From a virus, in the IMG/VR virus record IMGVR_UViG_3300030380_000506, positions 1-22,944 of that record: a stretch of 22,944 bases of DNA, one strand, 5' to 3'. Positions 3,202 through 21,754 of the stretch are shown here, in pieces. The notes beneath the pieces were generated by a model that was not told the DNA's origin, did no database searches, and worked only from the letters and a program-made list of their open reading frames with translations. The first letter of the stretch is position 1; every line of letters starts with the position of its first letter. A program made the translations under genes and the position numbers.

Positions 3202-3425
3202 ATAATGACTGGATAAATAAACCAAGAGAAGTAGTCAACCCTAATGTTTATAGCAAAGAGCAATGGAATAAAGTTAGAACTGTTGTTAAAACGCAACACA
3301 TGAAGCACTATCCAAAAGGTTTTGTAACTGATATGGAGGCAGATAAAATACTTGCAGCCATGTCGCCACAAACAGTAGAAAAACTTTATGAGCTAGCAGT
3401 CAAATATGGCATCTCTCAACTATAA
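3198..3425 (+). CDS. small protein of unknown function before TerL
   Basis: A 75-residue protein of unrecognised family with the look of a small soluble helical protein (C-terminal SPQTVEKLYELAVKYG). The start is a GTG, chosen because AAGGAGA (3184-3190) lies seven bases before it and because GTGA overlaps the lysozyme stop. No in-frame ATG occurs until residue 35. Its last 20 bases overlap the start of the large terminase gene in another frame, so the two are probably co-translated. No membrane segment is visible, so it is not a holin candidate. Confidence 0.65.
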   Translation: MNNDWINKPREVVNPNVYSKEQWNKVRTVVKTQHMKHYPKGFVTDMEADKILAAMSPQTVEKLYELAVKYGISQL

Positions 3426-4917: not shown

Positions 4918-5183
4918 TGTGTAATCCATTTAGTACTCCGAAGCCACCAGGCCCATCGGCAGAAGATATAAGAGCAAGAGAGTCAGCTAGACAAGCGCAA
5001 AGAGATGCGTTGAAAGAAGAAAGAAGGTCTGCTGAACAAATTAAAGAAGAACAATTAGAACTAGCACAAGCCGCAGCAGCAGGCAGACGAGGCAGAAGAA
5101 GTCTTATGGCTGGAAGAAAGAAAGGCGGTAGTGGTTTTGATGTTGCCGATATATATCAAACTAAAGGAACATTAGGTGCTTGA
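4917..5183 (+). CDS. small conserved-type protein between TerL and portal
   Basis: An 88-residue protein with an unusual start, MCNPF, a proline-rich segment (residues 8-13), a charged coiled-coil-like middle (about 16-52) and a basic Gly/Arg motif GRRGRRSL (56-63), ending in a glycine-rich tail. Small proteins with an 'RRGRRSL' block next to the portal gene are familiar from short-tailed phages, but I know of no proven function. A minor head or connector role is plausible from position. The start is in TAATG. The gene at 12737 also begins Met-Cys-X-Pro. Confidence 0.65.
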   Translation: MCNPFSTPKPPGPSAEDIRARESARQAQRDALKEERRSAEQIKEEQLELAQAAAAGRRGRRSLMAGRKKGGSGFDVADIYQTKGTLGA

Positions 5184-6769
5184 TGATAGATAGCAAACCA
5201 AGTGTAAATGTAAAAAATATTGATAATCCTGCTAAAAAAATTTTAGCAAAGTACGAGCATGCAAAAACATTAAAAGATCAGTGGGTTTCTGTTTTTGAAG
5301 AATGTTATGAATATGCTTTACCGCAAAGAGAATCTTTTTTTAATGAAACAGCAGGGAGAAGAAGAACTGACAATATCTTTGATGAAACAGCCGTTGTTGG
5401 AGTACAAGAGTTTGCAAGTAGATTACAATCAGGCATAGTACCTAACTATGCTAGATGGGCTGAGTTTGTTGCAGGTACAGAAATTCCAGAAGATATGCAA
5501 AAAGAAACTAATCTAGCATTAGATGAAGTTACAGAATATGTTTTTGAAATTTTACAAAATAGTAATTTTTCTCAAGAAGTTCATGAAACATTTTTAGATA
5601 TAGCTTTAGGCACAGGAGTTTTATTAGTTGAAGAAGGCGATGCAGTTCAACCAATAAGATTTAAAGCTATTCCATTACCTCAAGTTTGTTTAACAAGTGG
5701 CTATGATGACAAAGTAGATGCAGTTTATCGTACACGCAAAATGAGATTAAAAGAACTTACTTTTGCTTATGCTAAACCAATTTATAATGACAAAATGGCA
5801 ATGGATATGGAAGCAAATCCTGACAAGGAAATTACTATTATTGAGTCTGTATATAGAGATTATTCACAAACAAAAGAAGAAGTTAATATATTTTGTGCTA
5901 TTGCAAAAGATTATGAGCATAAAATATATGAAGAAGAATATAGAGGAGCAGGAAGCAATCCTTATATTACCTATCGTTGGTCTAAATGTTCTGGTGAAAC
6001 ATATGGTAGAGGACCATTACAGTTTGCGTTGCCTGCAATTAAAACTGCTAATTTAGTCGTTGAGCTAATATTAGAAAATGCACAGATGAGTATATCTGGT
6101 ATGTACCAAGTGGAAGATGATGGAGTCATTAATGTTGACAACATTGCACTTATTCCAGGTACAGTAATTCCGAAAGCAGCAGGCAGCGCAGGTTTACAAC
6201 CAATAGCACAAGCAGGTAGCTTTAATGTGTCTGACTTAGTTTTACGTGATATGAGAACTAATATTAAAAAAGCGTTATACAATGATATGTTAGGGAATCC
6301 AAATGAGAAAACACCAATGTCAGCAACAGAAGTAGCTGAAAGACAAGCTGATTTATCTAGGCAAATAGGTGCTGCATTTGGTAGATTACAAGCAGAAATG
6401 GTAAATCCTGTACTAGCTAGAGTAATTCATATATTAAAAAAACAAGGACGTATAGAAATACCTACAGTTAATGGTAAAGAAGTACAAGTAAAATCTTCAA
6501 GTCCATTAGCACAAGCACAATATCAATCTGATGTAGTAAATATAGACAGATTTTTAGGATTAATACAGGGTAGAGTAGGACCACAATTATTAAATGCAAT
6601 GATAAAACAAGATGAAGTTGCTAAATATATTGCAAAAAAACTTGGTATTCCAGAAGAACTAATCAGATCACCACAAGAAATTGCACAAATGATGCAACAA
6701 ATGCAACAATTACAGCAAATGCAACAAGCAGCTCAAGGAACGCCAGCAGAAGGAATAATGGACGGCTAA
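5183..6769 (+). CDS. portal (head-tail connector) protein
   Basis: A 528-residue portal, close in length to T7 gp8 (536), and of the podovirus head-tail connector family (PF12236 type). Twelve copies should form the ring through which DNA enters and leaves. Family-like segments include the N-terminal KDQWVSVFEECYEYALPQRE, the DNIFDETAVVGVQEFASRLQSG block (about 55-80), and the later MSATEVAERQADLSRQIGAAFGRLQ stretch typical of the wing/stem region. The C-terminus is a Met/Gln-rich repeat (about 503-518). The start at 5183 is preferred over a TTG at 5180 because it makes a TGATG overlap with the previous stop and AGGT lies at 5174-5177. It probably shares a transcript with TerL. Confidence 0.92.
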   Translation: MIDSKPSVNVKNIDNPAKKILAKYEHAKTLKDQWVSVFEECYEYALPQRESFFNETAGRRRTDNIFDETAVVGVQEFASRLQSGIVPNYARWAEFVAGTEIPEDMQKETNLALDEVTEYVFEILQNSNFSQEVHETFLDIALGTGVLLVEEGDAVQPIRFKAIPLPQVCLTSGYDDKVDAVYRTRKMRLKELTFAYAKPIYNDKMAMDMEANPDKEITIIESVYRDYSQTKEEVNIFCAIAKDYEHKIYEEEYRGAGSNPYITYRWSKCSGETYGRGPLQFALPAIKTANLVVELILENAQMSISGMYQVEDDGVINVDNIALIPGTVIPKAAGSAGLQPIAQAGSFNVSDLVLRDMRTNIKKALYNDMLGNPNEKTPMSATEVAERQADLSRQIGAAFGRLQAEMVNPVLARVIHILKKQGRIEIPTVNGKEVQVKSSSPLAQAQYQSDVVNIDRFLGLIQGRVGPQLLNAMIKQDEVAKYIAKKLGIPEELIRSPQEIAQMMQQMQQLQQMQQAAQGTPAEGIMDG

Positions 6770-6776
6770 TAAGTCC

Positions 6777-6804
6777 TTGACTTTTGGTAACATTTTTATA
6801 TTAT
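6777..6804 (+). promoter_or_regulatory. sigma70-type promoter for the capsid unit
   Basis: TTGACT (6777-6782, five of six) and TATTAT (6799-6804, five of six) with a 16-base spacer lie in the only sizeable gap between portal and capsid genes. Transcription would begin near the GGG at 6811, about 100 bases before the next ATG. It would give the scaffold and capsid genes their own promoter, matched by a terminator at 9611-9648. Confidence 0.6.
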
Positions 6805-6811
6805 CGTAGTG

Positions 6812-6868
6812 GGAAGTAAAGCACATTTAACCCCCACAACAGTTAATGATGAAAGTACCTTTGCTTCC
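6812..6868 (+). promoter_or_regulatory. nested hairpin in the capsid-unit leader
   Basis: GGAAGTAAAG (6812-6821) pairs with CTTTGCTTCC (6859-6868) over ten positions, including one G-U pair. Within its 37-base loop TTAAC (6827-6831) pairs with GTTAA (6842-6846). The outer stem would begin at the very 5' end of the predicted transcript, a position often used to protect messages from 5'-end decay. No T-run follows, so it is not a terminator. No known riboswitch is recognised. Confidence 0.4.
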
Positions 6869-6870
6869 TC

Positions 6871-6890
6871 AATGTTTCACGTGAAACATT
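6871..6890. promoter_or_regulatory. parS: perfect parS-type palindrome (candidate ParB-binding site)
   Basis: AATGTTTCACGTGAAACATT is a perfect 20-bp palindrome. Its inner 16 bases, TGTTTCACGTGAAACA (6873-6888), are identical to the consensus bacterial chromosomal parS, the site where ParB loads and spreads to help segregate DNA. This form is usual near parAB in Alphaproteobacteria. It lies about 60-80 bases after a predicted transcription start and just before the ribosome-binding site of the capsid unit's first gene. As RNA it could also fold as an 8-bp stem with an ACGT loop, but no proper T-run follows. The sequence match is certain; binding by a host or phage ParB is inference. Confidence 0.8.
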
Positions 6891-6911
6891 TGTAATCACA
6901 TGAGGTGTAGC

Positions 6912-7199
6912 ATGGCAGAAAATAAAGTAAAAACTCTTATAGGGCTTGATGGCATGGAAAGAACGCCAGATCAAGAAGAAGCACTTAATGCAGTTGCAAG
7001 AGCATTATTCACATCAGATGCAGGCAAAACATTTATCCAGTATTTAAAATCAATTACGATTGAGACTGTTGCTGGACCTGATATTGATGATAAACAATTA
7101 AGACATTTAGAAGGACAGCGCTATATTGTAGGTTTAATACAACGTAGAAGTAATAAAGGACAATCACAAAAAATAGTGGAGGACAGTAACAATGGCTGA
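6912..7199 (+). CDS. Bbp19-like small virion-region protein
   Basis: A 95-residue protein sitting between portal and scaffold. Residues about 30-80 (FTSDAGKTFIQYLKS, then RHLEGQRYIVGLIQRR) resemble the small Bbp19-type domain found at this place in BPP-1-like and other short-tailed phages, whose exact function I do not know. The ATG at 6912 is chosen over an in-frame ATG at 6900 because GAGGTG (6902-6907) lies at proper distance before it. It is the first gene after the predicted promoter and parS-type palindrome. It overlaps the scaffold gene by eight bases. The family call is moderate. Confidence 0.65.
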   Translation: MAENKVKTLIGLDGMERTPDQEEALNAVARALFTSDAGKTFIQYLKSITIETVAGPDIDDKQLRHLEGQRYIVGLIQRRSNKGQSQKIVEDSNNG

Positions 7200-7929
7200 T
7201 GAACAAATAACTGAACAAGAAATCTTAGATGAAGTTCCTGCAAACGAAGTACCGCAAGAAGAACGACCTGAGCATATACCTGAAAAGTTTTGGAAAGATG
7301 GCAAAGTTGATACTGATGAAATGGCAAAGTCATATACTCAATTAGAGTCATATAGCACAGGAAAAGAAGAAACCATTAAAGAAAAATTAATGGAAGAACT
7401 TGCTAATGAACATGCAGAAAATGTTCCAGAAGCATATGAAATACCTAAATTACCAGAAGGTATAACAGAAGAAATGGTTACTGAGAATCCAATGACTACA
7501 TGGTGGAATACTTTTGCTAAAGAAAATGGGTTTACACAAGAAGAATATGATGCAGGTATTACTGCTTATGTTGAAACTATGCAGAGTCAACAGCCAGATA
7601 TTGATGCAGAAATGGCAGCTTTAGGAGAAAATGCTAACTCAAGAGTAGATGCAGTTAATGCTTGGGCTAGTAAAAACTTTCCGCCAGAAGAATATGATGC
7701 AATACAATATTCTTTAGGAACATCTGCTAGTGGCATACAAGCTCTTGAACGTATCATGGAAATGGGTAAAACAGGTGTTAGATCTGAGCAGTTTTCACAA
7801 CCAGAAAAACAGCTTACAATGGCTGATGCTAGGGCTATGATGCAAGATAAAAGATATTATGATCCAAGATTTAGAGATGAGGCATATGTAGCAAAAGTAG
7901 ATGCTGCATTTAGAATGTTGACTAAGTAA
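7192..7929 (+). CDS. capsid scaffolding (assembly) protein
   Basis: A 245-residue, very acidic protein that should fill and shape the procapsid and then leave. It is of the T7 gp9 capsid-assembly type. The diagnostic N-terminal segment RPEHIPEKFWKDGKVDTDEMAKSY (about 25-48) is typical, as are the Glu/Asp-rich helical middle, the FPPEEYDAIQYSLGTSASGIQALERIME stretch (about 163-190) and the C-terminal YYDPRFRDEAYVAKVDAAF, which is likely to contact the capsid. T7 gp9 has 307 residues. GGAGG precedes the ATG. The stop shares TAATG with the next gene. Confidence 0.9.
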   Translation: MADEQITEQEILDEVPANEVPQEERPEHIPEKFWKDGKVDTDEMAKSYTQLESYSTGKEETIKEKLMEELANEHAENVPEAYEIPKLPEGITEEMVTENPMTTWWNTFAKENGFTQEEYDAGITAYVETMQSQQPDIDAEMAALGENANSRVDAVNAWASKNFPPEEYDAIQYSLGTSASGIQALERIMEMGKTGVRSEQFSQPEKQLTMADARAMMQDKRYYDPRFRDEAYVAKVDAAFRMLTK

Positions 7930-8480
7930 TGATTTATGTAGAAAAAACAATCCCAGATGATTGTTTTCGATTAGCTCCCAATCTACAACAGCTAGATAAA
8001 TATGAACTAGCTACTTTGGGAGTTGATCCATTAACTGCGCTAGTAAATCCATTTCGTTATAACAGACCTAATACACATAGTTTTACTATTTTTGAAAAAG
8101 ATACTGATAAAATAGTTGCTATATGGGGAGCAATGCCAATTAGCAAAACTAATCCTTACAGAGCAGCCGTATGGTTTTTAGCGAATGATTTGATACACAA
8201 AAACAAAAGAAGTATCTTAAATGCTAATTTAAGATGGGCTAAATACTTAGAATCTCATTATTCTTTTCTGTTTAATTTTATATCTTTTGAGCATAAAAAG
8301 AGCATAAAGTGGTTAAAATGGCAAAAATATACCTTTGCAAAGCAACCAACACTTGTAAATGACATTAAAATGTATTATTTTTATAAGCATCTACCAAAGG
8401 TAGATACGGAAATACAGCCCATTATTTCGGAGATAGGCCCTAAATGGACAACCGAATTGAAGGATAAAGGACAACTGTGA
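7929..8480 (+). CDS. GNAT-like protein (T7 gp13 / DUF2833 type)
   Basis: A 183-residue protein resembling the acetyltransferase-fold phage proteins related to T7 gp13 (138 residues). The opening MIYVEKTIPDDCFRLAPNL, the strand FTIFEKDTDKIVAIWGAMP (about 52-70), AAVWFLANDL (about 79-88) and the helix of the NLRWAKYLESHYSFLFNFI region fit that pattern. Whether it transfers an acetyl group is unknown. In T7, gp13 is needed for proper virion maturation. It lies between scaffold and capsid, starts in TAATG with the scaffold stop, and is unlike T7 in placement, since gp13 there follows the tail-tube genes. Confidence 0.65.
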   Translation: MIYVEKTIPDDCFRLAPNLQQLDKYELATLGVDPLTALVNPFRYNRPNTHSFTIFEKDTDKIVAIWGAMPISKTNPYRAAVWFLANDLIHKNKRSILNANLRWAKYLESHYSFLFNFISFEHKKSIKWLKWQKYTFAKQPTLVNDIKMYYFYKHLPKVDTEIQPIISEIGPKWTTELKDKGQL

Positions 8481-8511: not shown

Positions 8512-9336
8512 ATGAGTACATCTATATCAACTGCCTTTATTAAACAGTTTGAAGCAGAAGTTCATATGGCTTATCAGCGTATGGGTTCAAAATTAATGAA
8601 TACTGTAAGGCAGTCTAAAAATGTAAAAGGTAGCCAAGCACGTTTCCAAAAAGTAGGGAAAGGTACAGCCGTTACTAAAAATCGTCATGCAGAAGTTCCA
8701 ACAATGGACATCTCGCATAGCACAGTTGATGTAACACTTTCTGATTTCTATGCAAGTGATTATGTTGATACACTAGACGAGTTAAAAACAAACATAGACG
8801 AAAGACAAGTTCTAGCTCAATCTGCTGCGGCAGCTTTAGGTAGACAAACAGACAAGCTAATCATTGATGTATTGGATGCAGGTTCAAACTCTGCAAACAT
8901 AGCGCATGGTTCTGCTGGTCTAACATTAGCAAAAGCATTAACAACTTATGAAACATTTGGTGATGCAGATGTTCCAGATGATGGCGGAAGGCACTTTGTA
9001 GTGTCGCCTGCTGGATGGGCTGACTTGCTACAAATTGACCAATTCTCAAGAGCAGAATATGTTGGAGAAGGTGAACTACCTTACTCTGGCGGTATGACAG
9101 CTAAGAGATGGTTAGGGTTCTTATTCTTCACACATTCAGGATTGACACTTGCTAGTACAACTAGAGATTGTCATGCTTACCACAAATCTGCTATTGGCCT
9201 TGCTACAGGTGCTGATGTAAGAACTGAGGTAAACTATGTTCCTGAGAAGGTAAGTCATTTAACAACATCTATGATGAGTATGCAGGCAGTAGCTATTGAT
9301 GCGACTGGTTTCATGCAAATCCAGATTACTGAATAA
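8512..9336 (+). CDS. major capsid protein
   Basis: A 274-residue shell protein, likely of the HK97 fold, resembling capsid proteins of BPP-1-like and marine podoviruses rather than T7 gp10. Recognisable stretches are STAFIKQFEAEVHMAYQRMGSKL at the start, the loop-like KGTAVTKNRHAEVPTMD (about 50-66), DYVDTLDELKTNIDERQVLAQSAAAALGRQTDKLI (about 83-118) and the late RWLGFLFFTHSGL. AGGAGA lies at 8500-8505, just before the ATG. The short gap before it (8481-8511) is AT-rich. The gene is followed after 12 bases by a small decoration candidate, then by a terminator. Confidence 0.88.
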   Translation: MSTSISTAFIKQFEAEVHMAYQRMGSKLMNTVRQSKNVKGSQARFQKVGKGTAVTKNRHAEVPTMDISHSTVDVTLSDFYASDYVDTLDELKTNIDERQVLAQSAAAALGRQTDKLIIDVLDAGSNSANIAHGSAGLTLAKALTTYETFGDADVPDDGGRHFVVSPAGWADLLQIDQFSRAEYVGEGELPYSGGMTAKRWLGFLFFTHSGLTLASTTRDCHAYHKSAIGLATGADVRTEVNYVPEKVSHLTTSMMSMQAVAIDATGFMQIQITE

Positions 9337-18900: not shown

Positions 18901-19937
18901 TTTTTGATAAAAGAATTATGAAACCAACAGAAGCAGTACAAGCACCATTTTATCATATGAATTTATTGTCTGCCTGGACACATAAAATGAAAGAAATGAC
19001 ACAGCATATTTCAACACATAGATTTTTAGAAGATGCGCAAAAAGTTGCTAATAATACAGCAACAGATTTTGATATTACAAGATTAGCTAGTTATGGAATA
19101 TCAAAACAAGAAGCAAGAGCAATAGGTAAGTTACCTATGCATAAAACAACCAATGGAATGTTATATGTAAAACAAAAAGAATGGGCTGCAACAAAAAATG
19201 GTTTAGAGTATGGTGATAAATTAAGATTTGCATCATTTCAAGATGTGCAAAGAACAATTATTACACCAAGTCTTGCAGATAAACCAAACATGATGTTTGG
19301 TGTTATACGTATACATGATGAAGGATTAGCAGAAACATTTGATAACTCTGTATTTAGATTTTTAGGTGGTTTTGAAAAAACTAAATATGGAGGTAAATTT
19401 AATAATGGCTTTTTAGCATTACCATTTCAATTTTATGCATGGTCATTTGCAGCAAACAGAAAATTATTATTATCAGGATTGTCAGGTAGAGAAGCTGATA
19501 TAGCAGCAGGTATTGTAGCAATGATAGGTTTTGCAGCTATGGGTGATTATTTAAAAAACCCAACATATTATATGCATAAGTCTAATGAAGAAAGAATATA
19601 TAGAGCAATAGAAATGTCTGGAATTACTGGATTAGTAGGAGATGTAAACTTTGCTTTAGAAGTTGTATCAGAAGGTATGTTTGATACTCCAATGGGAGTT
19701 AGACCTATATTAGGCATACCAGGAAGATTTGGAGAAGCTAATATTGCTGATGCAACAGGTGAATTTATTGGACCAGCACCAGGAATGTTTGCTGATGTAA
19801 TACATGCATTAGGCACAGATGCTCCATTTGACGAAAAAGCCCAAACATTTAGGCGTTTAATTCCATTTAATAATTTGATATTCTTAGATGGATTGTTTAA
19901 AAAAATATACAATCAAGGAGTAGAGGTACTAAGATGA
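15912..19937 (+). CDS. internal virion protein (T7 gp16-like)
   Basis: A 1341-residue protein, nearly the length of T7 gp16 (1318), the large ejection protein that spans the inner membrane. Three hydrophobic stretches are visible: about 117-140 (IIAAFLDPITYLPIPFVKG), about 174-195 (ESIMYVGAGSLLGGSMIAAFG) and near the C-terminus about 1197-1214 (GIVAMIGFAAMGDYL). The middle is long, helical and lysine-rich. I see no clear transglycosylase motif at the N-terminus, unlike T7 gp16; the lysozyme gene at 2428 may supply that activity. AAGGT (15901-15905) precedes the ATG in TAATG; the end shares ATGA with the fibre gene. Confidence 0.78.
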   Translation: MAVVERDKWFENGPFPAQEPMASRRQKLIPDASYWDTISAAWQLEPVGQLYLSNESTFLDLPENPVIDIDTQIEDAGLSYYSEYFNDIRNQEHFDYLVEKIHFNNHQRDIRDNGGFMPEIIAAFLDPITYLPIPFVKGMTFGTRFVKGAGYSAAAVASGEPIRHAYDPTATATESIMYVGAGSLLGGSMIAAFGKRGIKGFDDPDLSLKTTEEKAQKVFKESWNMENDTFVSDMYDADSPITYDLEIDGVVDGSSYKLENGGQLEGIDKPIKILNAGDLYNGKKLEQDTIIIDHAIIERKFRDGTYVNPDIPGSIKLPDQFASTDDYLKFLIKKEHIKQKGQAPDGYDAIDSENLLNQEVLESIRASKIGRQTSGRNSERSWFAENVDRFITPVGELLNNKLRNKEMNNKVADLALEMFGDSATVTRASKAGYSVPQSALVKATANHFKTVGGFNKVLQDAFQKYRKQINTVSEQVAGYNLGATGIRTADIIDSGIRKLGGRKNIEEPIKFREFNELITKAIRDKEYYATAPKEIKEVADKIRNIYRMIGEEADKLGMFKNLKTIANQIEIYTNNVARATAMLKNHKKKYPNDKVGLERIKTNRDYAAKQLKQFKFQEKELLDGTTEAFNPLVENYVNRIYDIDAILDDLANEDWIAPTTLPNIDIKSGLAIGMQVRNNDAIGRITNIDNKGNIKALINEETITIKKKDIDLVGKKLNDNYDARYFTVPKENTFRGIIFNSFVRNKNITNPLDIYQVNARVDKTIKDITRDAQNIDMDGDTIHQYSPDAERTITAENSLHHRSINATDKELMPFLINDINYLMRAYSERMHKRIEMTRKFGEATAENKLWNMEMDLLEFEYKGNGDLKEITKLTNHLIDSRDKVYNLFNTADPESFMKSRLPATIRNWASTAMMGKVLFASIVDFARIPMVHGLSNTMRYLNSKHLFAADKKEFNEQIAQNAWLGDVFDVVMNNSSYRQMANTEQRVGRGVSAFDRFFDKRIMKPTEAVQAPFYHMNLLSAWTHKMKEMTQHISTHRFLEDAQKVANNTATDFDITRLASYGISKQEARAIGKLPMHKTTNGMLYVKQKEWAATKNGLEYGDKLRFASFQDVQRTIITPSLADKPNMMFGVIRIHDEGLAETFDNSVFRFLGGFEKTKYGGKFNNGFLALPFQFYAWSFAANRKLLLSGLSGREADIAAGIVAMIGFAAMGDYLKNPTYYMHKSNEERIYRAIEMSGITGLVGDVNFALEVVSEGMFDTPMGVRPILGIPGRFGEANIADATGEFIGPAPGMFADVIHALGTDAPFDEKAQTFRRLIPFNNLIFLDGLFKKIYNQGVEVLR

Positions 19938-21754
19938 CAATAGCAACAGCTAAAAATAACCCAAGAAATACCTATACCGCTACTGGTGGACAAACAGTAT
20001 TTACTATAGGTTTTGAGTTTTTTGCCACAGGAGATATTAAAGTATTTCGTAATGGCACAGCACTAACATTTAATGCTGCACCGAGTAGTGTTGCACAGTT
20101 TAGTGTGCAAGGTGTATCAAACGCTAGTGATAGTGCATATGAGTTTGGTGCAGGTGGTACAGTAACATTGGGAGCTGGTGCTACAGCAGATGACAGTATT
20201 GTAATTGTACGAGACATAACAGTAGAAAGAACCACAGACTTTACTCCAGCCGCATCATTTGATGTAACAGCATTAAATACACAGCTTGATACGTTAATGG
20301 CTATGATGGCAGAGAGAGAAGAAAGCACCTCAAGATCATTACGATTACCACTAGCAGAAACAACTACAAACTTTGACATGCAACTACCTGTCAAAGCAAC
20401 TAGAGCAAACAAAATATTAGAATTTGATAATGATGGTAATCCAGCAGCTTTAGTAACATCAACAAACTTAGCTACACTTGGCAACATTACATCTGATATA
20501 AGTGCTGTTGCAGCAGTAGCTAGCAATGTAACAACTGTTGCAGGTGTTGCAAGCAATGTTACAACAGTAGCAGGTATAGCTACTGATGTTACTGCAGTCT
20601 CAGGCAAAACTACTGAAATAGGTAGATTAGGTACAAGTGATGCAATAGCAGACATGGCATTACTAGGAACTTCTGCGGTAATAACAGATATGGGCTTACT
20701 AGGAACTTCTGCAAACGTTACTGCTATGGGCCATTTAGGTACATCAGGAAATGTAACAGCAATGGGTTTGTTAGGCACAAGTGATGTTGTAGCAGATATG
20801 GCATTGTTAGGAACAAGTGATGTTGTAGCTGATATGGCTTTACTTGCAAATGCAGATGTTATAGCTGACATGAATACATTAGCAACCAGCGACATTGTGA
20901 GTGATCTAAACACACTTGCAACTAGCGATATAGTAGCTGACTTAAATACACTAGCTACATCAGATATAGTTTCAGATATTAATACGTTAGCTACATCTGA
21001 TATAGTTTCTGATTTAAATACATTAGCCACATCAGATATTGTTAGTGATATAAATACATTAGCAACCTCAGATGTTGTTACTGATTTAAATTTATTAGCT
21101 ACTTCTGATTTTGTATCAGATTTAAATACATTAGCGACATCAACTAATGTAACTAATATAGCTACAGTAGCTACAAATATATCTGGAGTTAATAGCTTTG
21201 CAGCAAGATATAGAGTAACTAGTGGTGATCCAGGCTCAGACAATGATGCTGGTGATCTAAACTTTAATACCTCTAGTAATGTGTTAAAGTTTTATAATGG
21301 TAGTGCATGGGTAACTATAGATAGCACTACAGCTTTAGATAGTGAGGTTACTGGCACGTTACCTGTAGCTAATGGTGGTACAGGTGCTACTTCACTAACA
21401 GCAAATGGAGTATTAATAGGTAATGGTACATCAGCAGTAACGGCTGTTGATATGTCTACCAAAGGAAATATACTAGCAGGGGATGGCTCAGGCAATCCAT
21501 CTGCACTTGGTGTAGGTACAAATGATTTTGTACTAACAGCAGATAGCAGTACAGCAACAGGACTAAAATGGTCAGTAGCTGCGGCTGGTGCAACAGGTGG
21601 TGGTACAGACCAGGTGTTTTATGAAAACGCTAGAGTGATGACTACCAACTACACCATAACATCTAGCAAATCAGCTAGTACGGTAGGACCATTAACTATT
21701 AATAGTGGTGTAACATTAACCATACCAAGCGGAGAGAGGTTAGTAATCTTATGA
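19934..21754 (+). CDS. tail fibre with T7 gp17-type anchor and 12-residue repeats
   Basis: A 606-residue fibre. Residues 1-150 match the T7 gp17 N-terminal anchor that binds the tail: YTATGGQTVFTIGFEFF, DIKVFRNGT, a gap, then DDSIVIVRDITVERTTDFTP and a helix LNTQLDTLMAMMAEREE. A shaft follows, made of three 10-residue repeats (195-224) and fifteen 12-residue repeats (232-411). The distal part has GDLNFNTSSNVLKFYNGSAW, then PVANGGTGATSLTANGVLIGNGTS and a short beta end with INSGVTLTIPSGE. It should reach for the host surface. The start and end both use ATGA overlaps, tying it to the ejection gene and to the S74 fibre gene. Confidence 0.88.
   Translation: MTIATAKNNPRNTYTATGGQTVFTIGFEFFATGDIKVFRNGTALTFNAAPSSVAQFSVQGVSNASDSAYEFGAGGTVTLGAGATADDSIVIVRDITVERTTDFTPAASFDVTALNTQLDTLMAMMAEREESTSRSLRLPLAETTTNFDMQLPVKATRANKILEFDNDGNPAALVTSTNLATLGNITSDISAVAAVASNVTTVAGVASNVTTVAGIATDVTAVSGKTTEIGRLGTSDAIADMALLGTSAVITDMGLLGTSANVTAMGHLGTSGNVTAMGLLGTSDVVADMALLGTSDVVADMALLANADVIADMNTLATSDIVSDLNTLATSDIVADLNTLATSDIVSDINTLATSDIVSDLNTLATSDIVSDINTLATSDVVTDLNLLATSDFVSDLNTLATSTNVTNIATVATNISGVNSFAARYRVTSGDPGSDNDAGDLNFNTSSNVLKFYNGSAWVTIDSTTALDSEVTGTLPVANGGTGATSLTANGVLIGNGTSAVTAVDMSTKGNILAGDGSGNPSALGVGTNDFVLTADSSTATGLKWSVAAAGATGGGTDQVFYENARVMTTNYTITSSKSASTVGPLTINSGVTLTIPSGERLVIL
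20516..20605 (+). repeat. three 30-bp units coding 10-residue repeats
   Basis: The units encode VASNVTTVAG, VASNVTTVAG and IATDVTAVSG (20516-20545, 20546-20575, 20576-20605). The first two are identical in protein but differ in several codons. They start the fibre shaft and lead into the 12-residue repeats. Confidence 0.85.
20627..21166 (+). repeat. fifteen 36-bp units coding 12-residue repeats
   Basis: Fifteen back-to-back 36-base units encode 12-residue repeats. Units 1-6 are of the type LGTSDVVADMAL, unit 7 is intermediate, and units 8-14 are of the type LATSDIVSDLNT; unit 15 drifts to LATSTNVTNIAT. The hydrophobic spacing (L, then I/V-V, then L/M/I) suits a regular trimeric shaft. Codons differ widely even where the protein is identical. 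Confidence 0.9.

Follow-up and report, generated by a model that had tools for sequence, protein, structure and literature searches.

A host-type parS site under DNA-level selection in Hodr-related phages with no detected ParB

We found an exact copy of the bacterial chromosomal parS site, TGTTTCACGTGAAACA, in a stretch of viral DNA of 22,944 nucleotides (IMG/VR record IMGVR_UViG_3300030380_000506), which is called the window below. Comparison with relatives indicated that the phage site is a real parS of the host type, selected at the DNA level, in phages in which no ParB was detected. Phages that carry it probably borrow the chromosome-segregation protein of their host. Recruitment of host ParB by the phage site is strongly favoured by the comparisons given here and, with slightly less assurance, the site is likely to mimic the host centromere and load host ParB clamps on phage DNA. 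Coupling and organisation of the phage genome is our tentative choice of main payoff.

Results

An exact chromosomal parS between the portal and capsid genes

The window is a linear 22.9-kb podovirus fragment with terminase genes, a portal, a Bbp19-like ORF, a T7-type scaffold, a capsid, and tail and internal virion genes. The closest named phage is Pelagibacter phage EXVC031P Hodr (portal 74% and capsid 78% identical), the genome of which is 34.2 kb, and the complete genome of the window phage is probably ~34 kb. A tail-fibre-like gene at 19934–21754 contains tandem 36-bp repeats at 20505–21175, encoding runs like LATSDIVSDLNT.

The original prediction of a perfect 16-bp parS between a promoter and the capsid unit was borne out. 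The exact 16-mer is enclosed in a perfect 20-bp palindrome, AATGTTTCACGTGAAACATT, 103 nt past the portal stop and 23 nt ahead of the next ATG; a promoter-like sequence lies upstream, and Bbp19-like, scaffold and capsid genes follow downstream (Table 1). An exact 16-mer is expected by chance ~5e-6 times in a sequence of the size of the window, and no second match was found in the window even at ≤3 mismatches (0.11 expected at that tolerance) or in the whole record at ≤2 mismatches. For the promoter-like sequence, a consensus scan gave 0.7 such matches expected by chance. The Noc-binding site (NBS; consensus TATTTCCCGGGAAATA, PMC7383237) is a related palindrome of a paralogous clamp, but both half-site specificity bases of the phage site differ from the NBS consensus and are of the parS type.

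Table 1. Coordinates of parS and neighbouring features in the window
Feature	Position	Strand	Basis
Portal (head-tail connector), upstream of parS	5180..6769	+	phrog_332, E 5e-98; 74% identical to Hodr
Sigma-70-like promoter TTGACT-16-TATTAT, upstream of parS	6777..6804	+	consensus scan, alignment
Imperfect inverted repeat GGGAAGTAAAG ... CTTTGCTTCC, between promoter and parS	6811..6868	+	alignment
20-bp palindrome around parS	6871..6890	.	sequence
parS TGTTTCACGTGAAACA	6873..6888	.	exact match; kept in relatives; shuffled-palindrome control
Small Bbp19-like ORF, first gene 3′ of parS	6912..7199	+	PF25181 over cut-off
Scaffold (T7-type capsid assembly) gene	7192..7929	+	PF05396 over cut-off
Gene with internal virion protein family match	7929..8480	+	phrog_308
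Major capsid protein	8512..9336	+	phrog_3437, E 1e-61

The 16-bp core is kept in the window's own clade

Relatives with a portal at least 82% identical make up the window's clade, class A. Almost all of those with the region sequenced carry parS about 30–104 nt past the portal stop. In an alignment of 24 class A loci, mean pairwise identity was 0.92 over the 16 parS columns versus 0.60 in the upstream intergenic DNA, as anticipated for a palindrome that is conserved while its flanks drift; the ribosome-binding stretch 3′ of the site reached 0.84 in the same loci. The outer base pairs of the 20-bp palindrome drift and the 16-bp core is kept. Most changes affect position 5, position 12 or the dyad centre, and two loci (L148 and L150) share a symmetric change on both sides of the site (TGTTCCACGTGGAACA). 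Some class A variants alter the central CG (CACATG), which may count against a reading of the site by host ParB.

The elements beside parS are less constant. The promoter-like sequence is kept in most of class A, and the inverted repeat is missing from some relatives whose parS stays. In L133, L134, L135 and L145 the ~65 bp just upstream, including the inverted repeat, have been lost and the −35-like part alone is left of the promoter-like sequence; parS is retained.

The site is relocated in sister clades

Relatives with 72–78% portal identity, as well as a sister group at ~59%, had no intergenic site after the portal. In class B, the 16-mer or a variant with ≤2 mismatches was found within the N-terminal linker of the scaffold gene, a hypervariable stretch, where it is translated V-S-R-E-T in a variable register. 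N-terminal comparison revealed that the linker varies in both length and sequence, and that in scaffolds without the site the island is simply missing. The class B codons were GTT TCA C(GT/AT/AA) in 27 of 27 distinct contexts, with GAA as the next codon in 26 and GGA in 1; given VSRE, the string GTT-TCA-CGT-GAA is expected from codon usage at 0.025 per independent case. Class B has no intergenic cassette like the promoter-like and inverted-repeat stretch at 6777–6868 of the window, and there is often hardly any gap between the portal and the gene after it.

Further positions were found in other relatives. In L403 and L404 the site precedes the capsid gene and has one mismatch. Three genomes without a scaffold site have parS elsewhere, inside the gene of a 1272-aa virion protein (G265) or where an early HTH gene starts, translated M-F-H-V-K-Q (G264 and G257); class D sites thus belong either to a late virion gene or to an early module. 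At 3342–3665 of L450 and 2430–2744 of L451, parS overlaps the start codon of a small HTH protein gene and is read MFHVKQ; the neighbours of this gene are, by eye, exonuclease-, ERF- and SSB-like, marking an early recombination module.

In the portal tree, a fully supported branch has class A on one side, with class B rows adjacent. The five site states need 8 changes on this tree versus 35.8 in shuffles. Such a relocation pattern would not be expected of an incidental peptide, an RNA hairpin or a single-promoter operator.

One copy per genome, and losses

Across 162 related loci, parS was found at ≤1 mismatch as 62 sites in 62 different loci, and 150 shuffled, composition-matched palindromes gave a mean of 0.01 loci at that tolerance. 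Exact matches numbered 27 for parS, and none of the 150 shuffled palindromes had any. Together with the low chance expectation and the recurrence in relatives, these controls uphold the earlier view that coincidence is unlikely. Among the 45 records with a length of 15 kb or more, one site was present in 32 cases, none in 13 and two in 0; a Poisson distribution with the same mean gives a probability of 4e-4 for this single-copy pattern, a value that is optimistic since the records are related. More generally, the statistics are overstated by these counts, because related sequences do not provide independent cases.

The site is not universal. No parS was found in ten named pelagiphages that belong to other groups, including some on the same host strain, or in the Methylophilales phage compared, and it is missing from several relatives (G029, G256 and others). 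Hodr itself (L202) has a damaged core with two mismatches, TGTTTCAAATGAAACA, in its scaffold gene at 5018–5033. Within the Hodr sub-clade, graded erosion of the site (CACATG, CACAAG) or its loss was seen. Since other pelagiphages and some relatives do without the site and the core is damaged in Hodr, parS is dispensable; it is a lineage-level option rather than a requirement.

The likely host has the same site and a matching ParB

Because Hodr is the nearest isolate and the GC content is similarly low, the window phage likely infects SAR11. SAR11 genomes found by a 16S probe mostly have one perfect or near-perfect parS, and in the loci checked this parS is located within the 5′ portion of rsmG; parA and parB come next, and the ParB match is reached ~1.45 kb after the site. 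Exactly one perfect 16-mer was present in 43 of 148 SAR11 family members and two in none. At relaxed matching a parS-like site was found in 62 of 68 order members, where some extra one-mismatch matches look like chance. A second, weaker parS-like palindrome (TATTTCACGTGAAATA or its one-mismatch form) was noted at L328:1169–1184, in G091 and in G162, 332 bp from the main parS in SAR11.

The host parS variants TGTTTCACGTGAAACT, CGTTTCACGTGAAACA and TGTTCCACGTGAAACA, which include changed end bases, recur in the phages. When SAR11 ParB was aligned with the Caulobacter ParB–parS structure 6t1f, the equivalents of R173 and G201 were kept; both are reported to be absolutely conserved in ParB (PMC7383237). 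The ParB of the presumed host thus has the parS-reading residues.

Searches for ParB, integrase and RNA structure

A ParB-domain profile search of the window was empty, in agreement with the earlier statement that it holds no partition gene. Among related phage records, the ParB domain PF02195 was found in 0 of 29 (several of them 32–37 kb) and the ParB HTH domain PF17762 in 0 of 22; the window is incomplete, and absence of parB from its missing part rests on the near-complete relatives. These empty searches disfavour a phage-coded ParB elsewhere in the genome, which had been raised as an option, and they set the phages apart from phage- or plasmid-encoded ParABS with its own ParB. Tyrosine integrase PF00589 was detected in 0 of 24 records, so integrating temperate phages, as defined by that enzyme, were rejected as a category. 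A structured RNA element was also rejected: the fold of 6800–6915 had z = −1.4 and no Rfam family matched.

The same site recurs across IMG/VR

In IMG/VR the exact 16-mer was present in at least 120 contigs, compared with 11 and 5 contigs in full scans for two matched control palindromes, one of which had the same half-site dinucleotides as parS. Among the matches listed (L002–L121), parS-bearing contigs covered all GC contents, mostly with a single site and mostly without ParB. Chromosomal contamination was rejected as the source of viral parS: 119 of the 120 loci among the matches listed had no similarity to gidA, gidB or parB with SAR11 queries, by which distant homologues could be missed, and 1 of 120 did. 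PF02195 matched in 4 of 50 parS-bearing records and in none of the other 46, and some sites are internal to genes for phage DNA polymerase or primase. Clusters were also seen among the matches listed, with five sites in L017 and L044 and three in L053 and L063. A large protein encoded at L012:3–4064 matches a PHROG family described as ParB C-terminal domain, and a parS lies near the end of the same gene. On these sequence matches, the window appears as one case of a wider pattern.

Discussion

The phage site and chromosomal parS (ParABS, ParB/Spo0J family) share an identical 16-bp palindrome, and the variants tolerated in relatives, at position 5 or 12 and at the ends, are as in the host. Conservation, codons, shuffles and the tree each bear out selection at the DNA level. 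The VSRET reading occurs both within host rsmG and within the class B scaffold gene. The phage copy differs in having no detectable parB, in lying among structural or early genes on a phage genome rather than near parAB and the origin, and in being present once per genome. It thus appears to work like parS, yet it is no chromosomal centromere locus.

We propose that, when phage DNA enters the cell, the chromosomal ParB of the host, a CTP-dependent DNA clamp, would recognise the phage parS, close on it and slide over the flanking phage DNA. The phage would supply the cis site only, and the protein would come from the host. Through the clamp the phage genome could be coupled to host ParA/SMC, giving positioning, compaction and retention while a slow host passes through a long latent period; one site per genome would be enough for such coupling. 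Conservation of the core against drifting flanks, relocation, single copy, the host parS and the specificity residues of ParB argue for this reading, and they give strong support to the suggestion in the original prediction that host ParB could load here as on a real chromosomal parS. Retention in a slow host is plausible because another pelagiphage has a latent period of ~18 h (PMC12753301).

Other consequences of ParB loading were also weighed. Replicating phage copies of parS might pull ParB off host parS, so that segregation and division stop and the cell is kept as one factory. SAR11 typically has one perfect parS, so that few phage copies would outnumber it; the free location of the site and the failure to find a tyrosine integrase in 24 records would also fit such a decoy. 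A dose effect should, however, tolerate or even favour extra copies, and the total of 0 two-site records argues mildly against it, so we regard the decoy as unlikely, if worth keeping in mind. A little further down the scale we place an effect on timing, in which ParB clamps in the capsid module would impede late-gene transcription by host RNA polymerase until ParB is diluted through replication. In classes A–C the site lies within the portal-to-capsid stretch, in class A it stands just 3′ of the conserved promoter-like sequence, and the ParB-family protein KorB, a sliding clamp, is reported to silence genes at long range (PMC11790492). The site does not, however, keep a fixed place with respect to promoters and genes, as the class D sites illustrate. 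Because the site wanders among genome positions, a single-promoter function is argued against, and a specific block of capsid transcription, as first suggested, is disfavoured as the shared function since the contexts differ among relatives.

Readings without host ParB fared worse. It is improbable that a phage-coded DNA-binding protein other than host ParB reads the palindrome: palindromic operators are frequent in phages and a 107-aa HTH gene in L450 begins inside the site, but the sequence is the exact cellular parS, host-type end variants included, and the near-complete records hold no ParB-type domain. We give very little credence to an RNA hairpin or a conserved VSRET peptide with an incidental parS match. 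Palindromes can indeed fold into hairpins and class B does encode VSRET, but the fold is unremarkable, the class A site is intergenic, class D uses another frame (FHVKQ) and synonymous codons are fixed in class B; relocation and the frame change rule out peptide conservation as the cause. Chance, against which the expected number of exact matches, the recurrence in relatives and the control palindromes all speak, is practically negligible.

Recruitment of host ParB by the phage parS can be set beside known systems. In the phage and plasmid ParABS systems of P1, N15 and mycobacteriophage RedRock, a partition site likewise sits on an extrachromosomal element, but those elements encode partition proteins of their own and have the sites cognate to them. 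In the phages compared here the site corresponds to that of the host chromosome, and the searches found no ParB. CTX phage uses host XerCD through a cis dif site and so also brings a DNA site and borrows a host protein, for recombination there and for a segregation clamp here. Lacachita-type staphylococcal phages have a lone ParB gene without parA and no integrase (PMC10286716); they too have an incomplete partition system in a phage without integrase, but the opposite half, a ParB gene there and a parS site without ParB here. In the open-access journal literature covered, we found no description of phages carrying a host parS, and parS and pelagiphage were not combined.

A more general proposal, which we put at slightly under an even chance, is that widespread phages without integrase or partition genes use a single host-type centromere and host ParB, and thereby ParA or SMC, to place, compact or retain their genomes, with many independent instances in the virosphere, the capsid-region site of the window among them. 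Should host ParB indeed be loaded on phage DNA, phages that likely infect SAR11, the most abundant bacteria of the sea, would have chromosome segregation as a target or a resource, and the same might apply in many other hosts. In that case viral parS without parAB should not be taken as a sign of a plasmid prophage, and 16 bp would provide a position-independent handle on the whereabouts of phage DNA in the cell.
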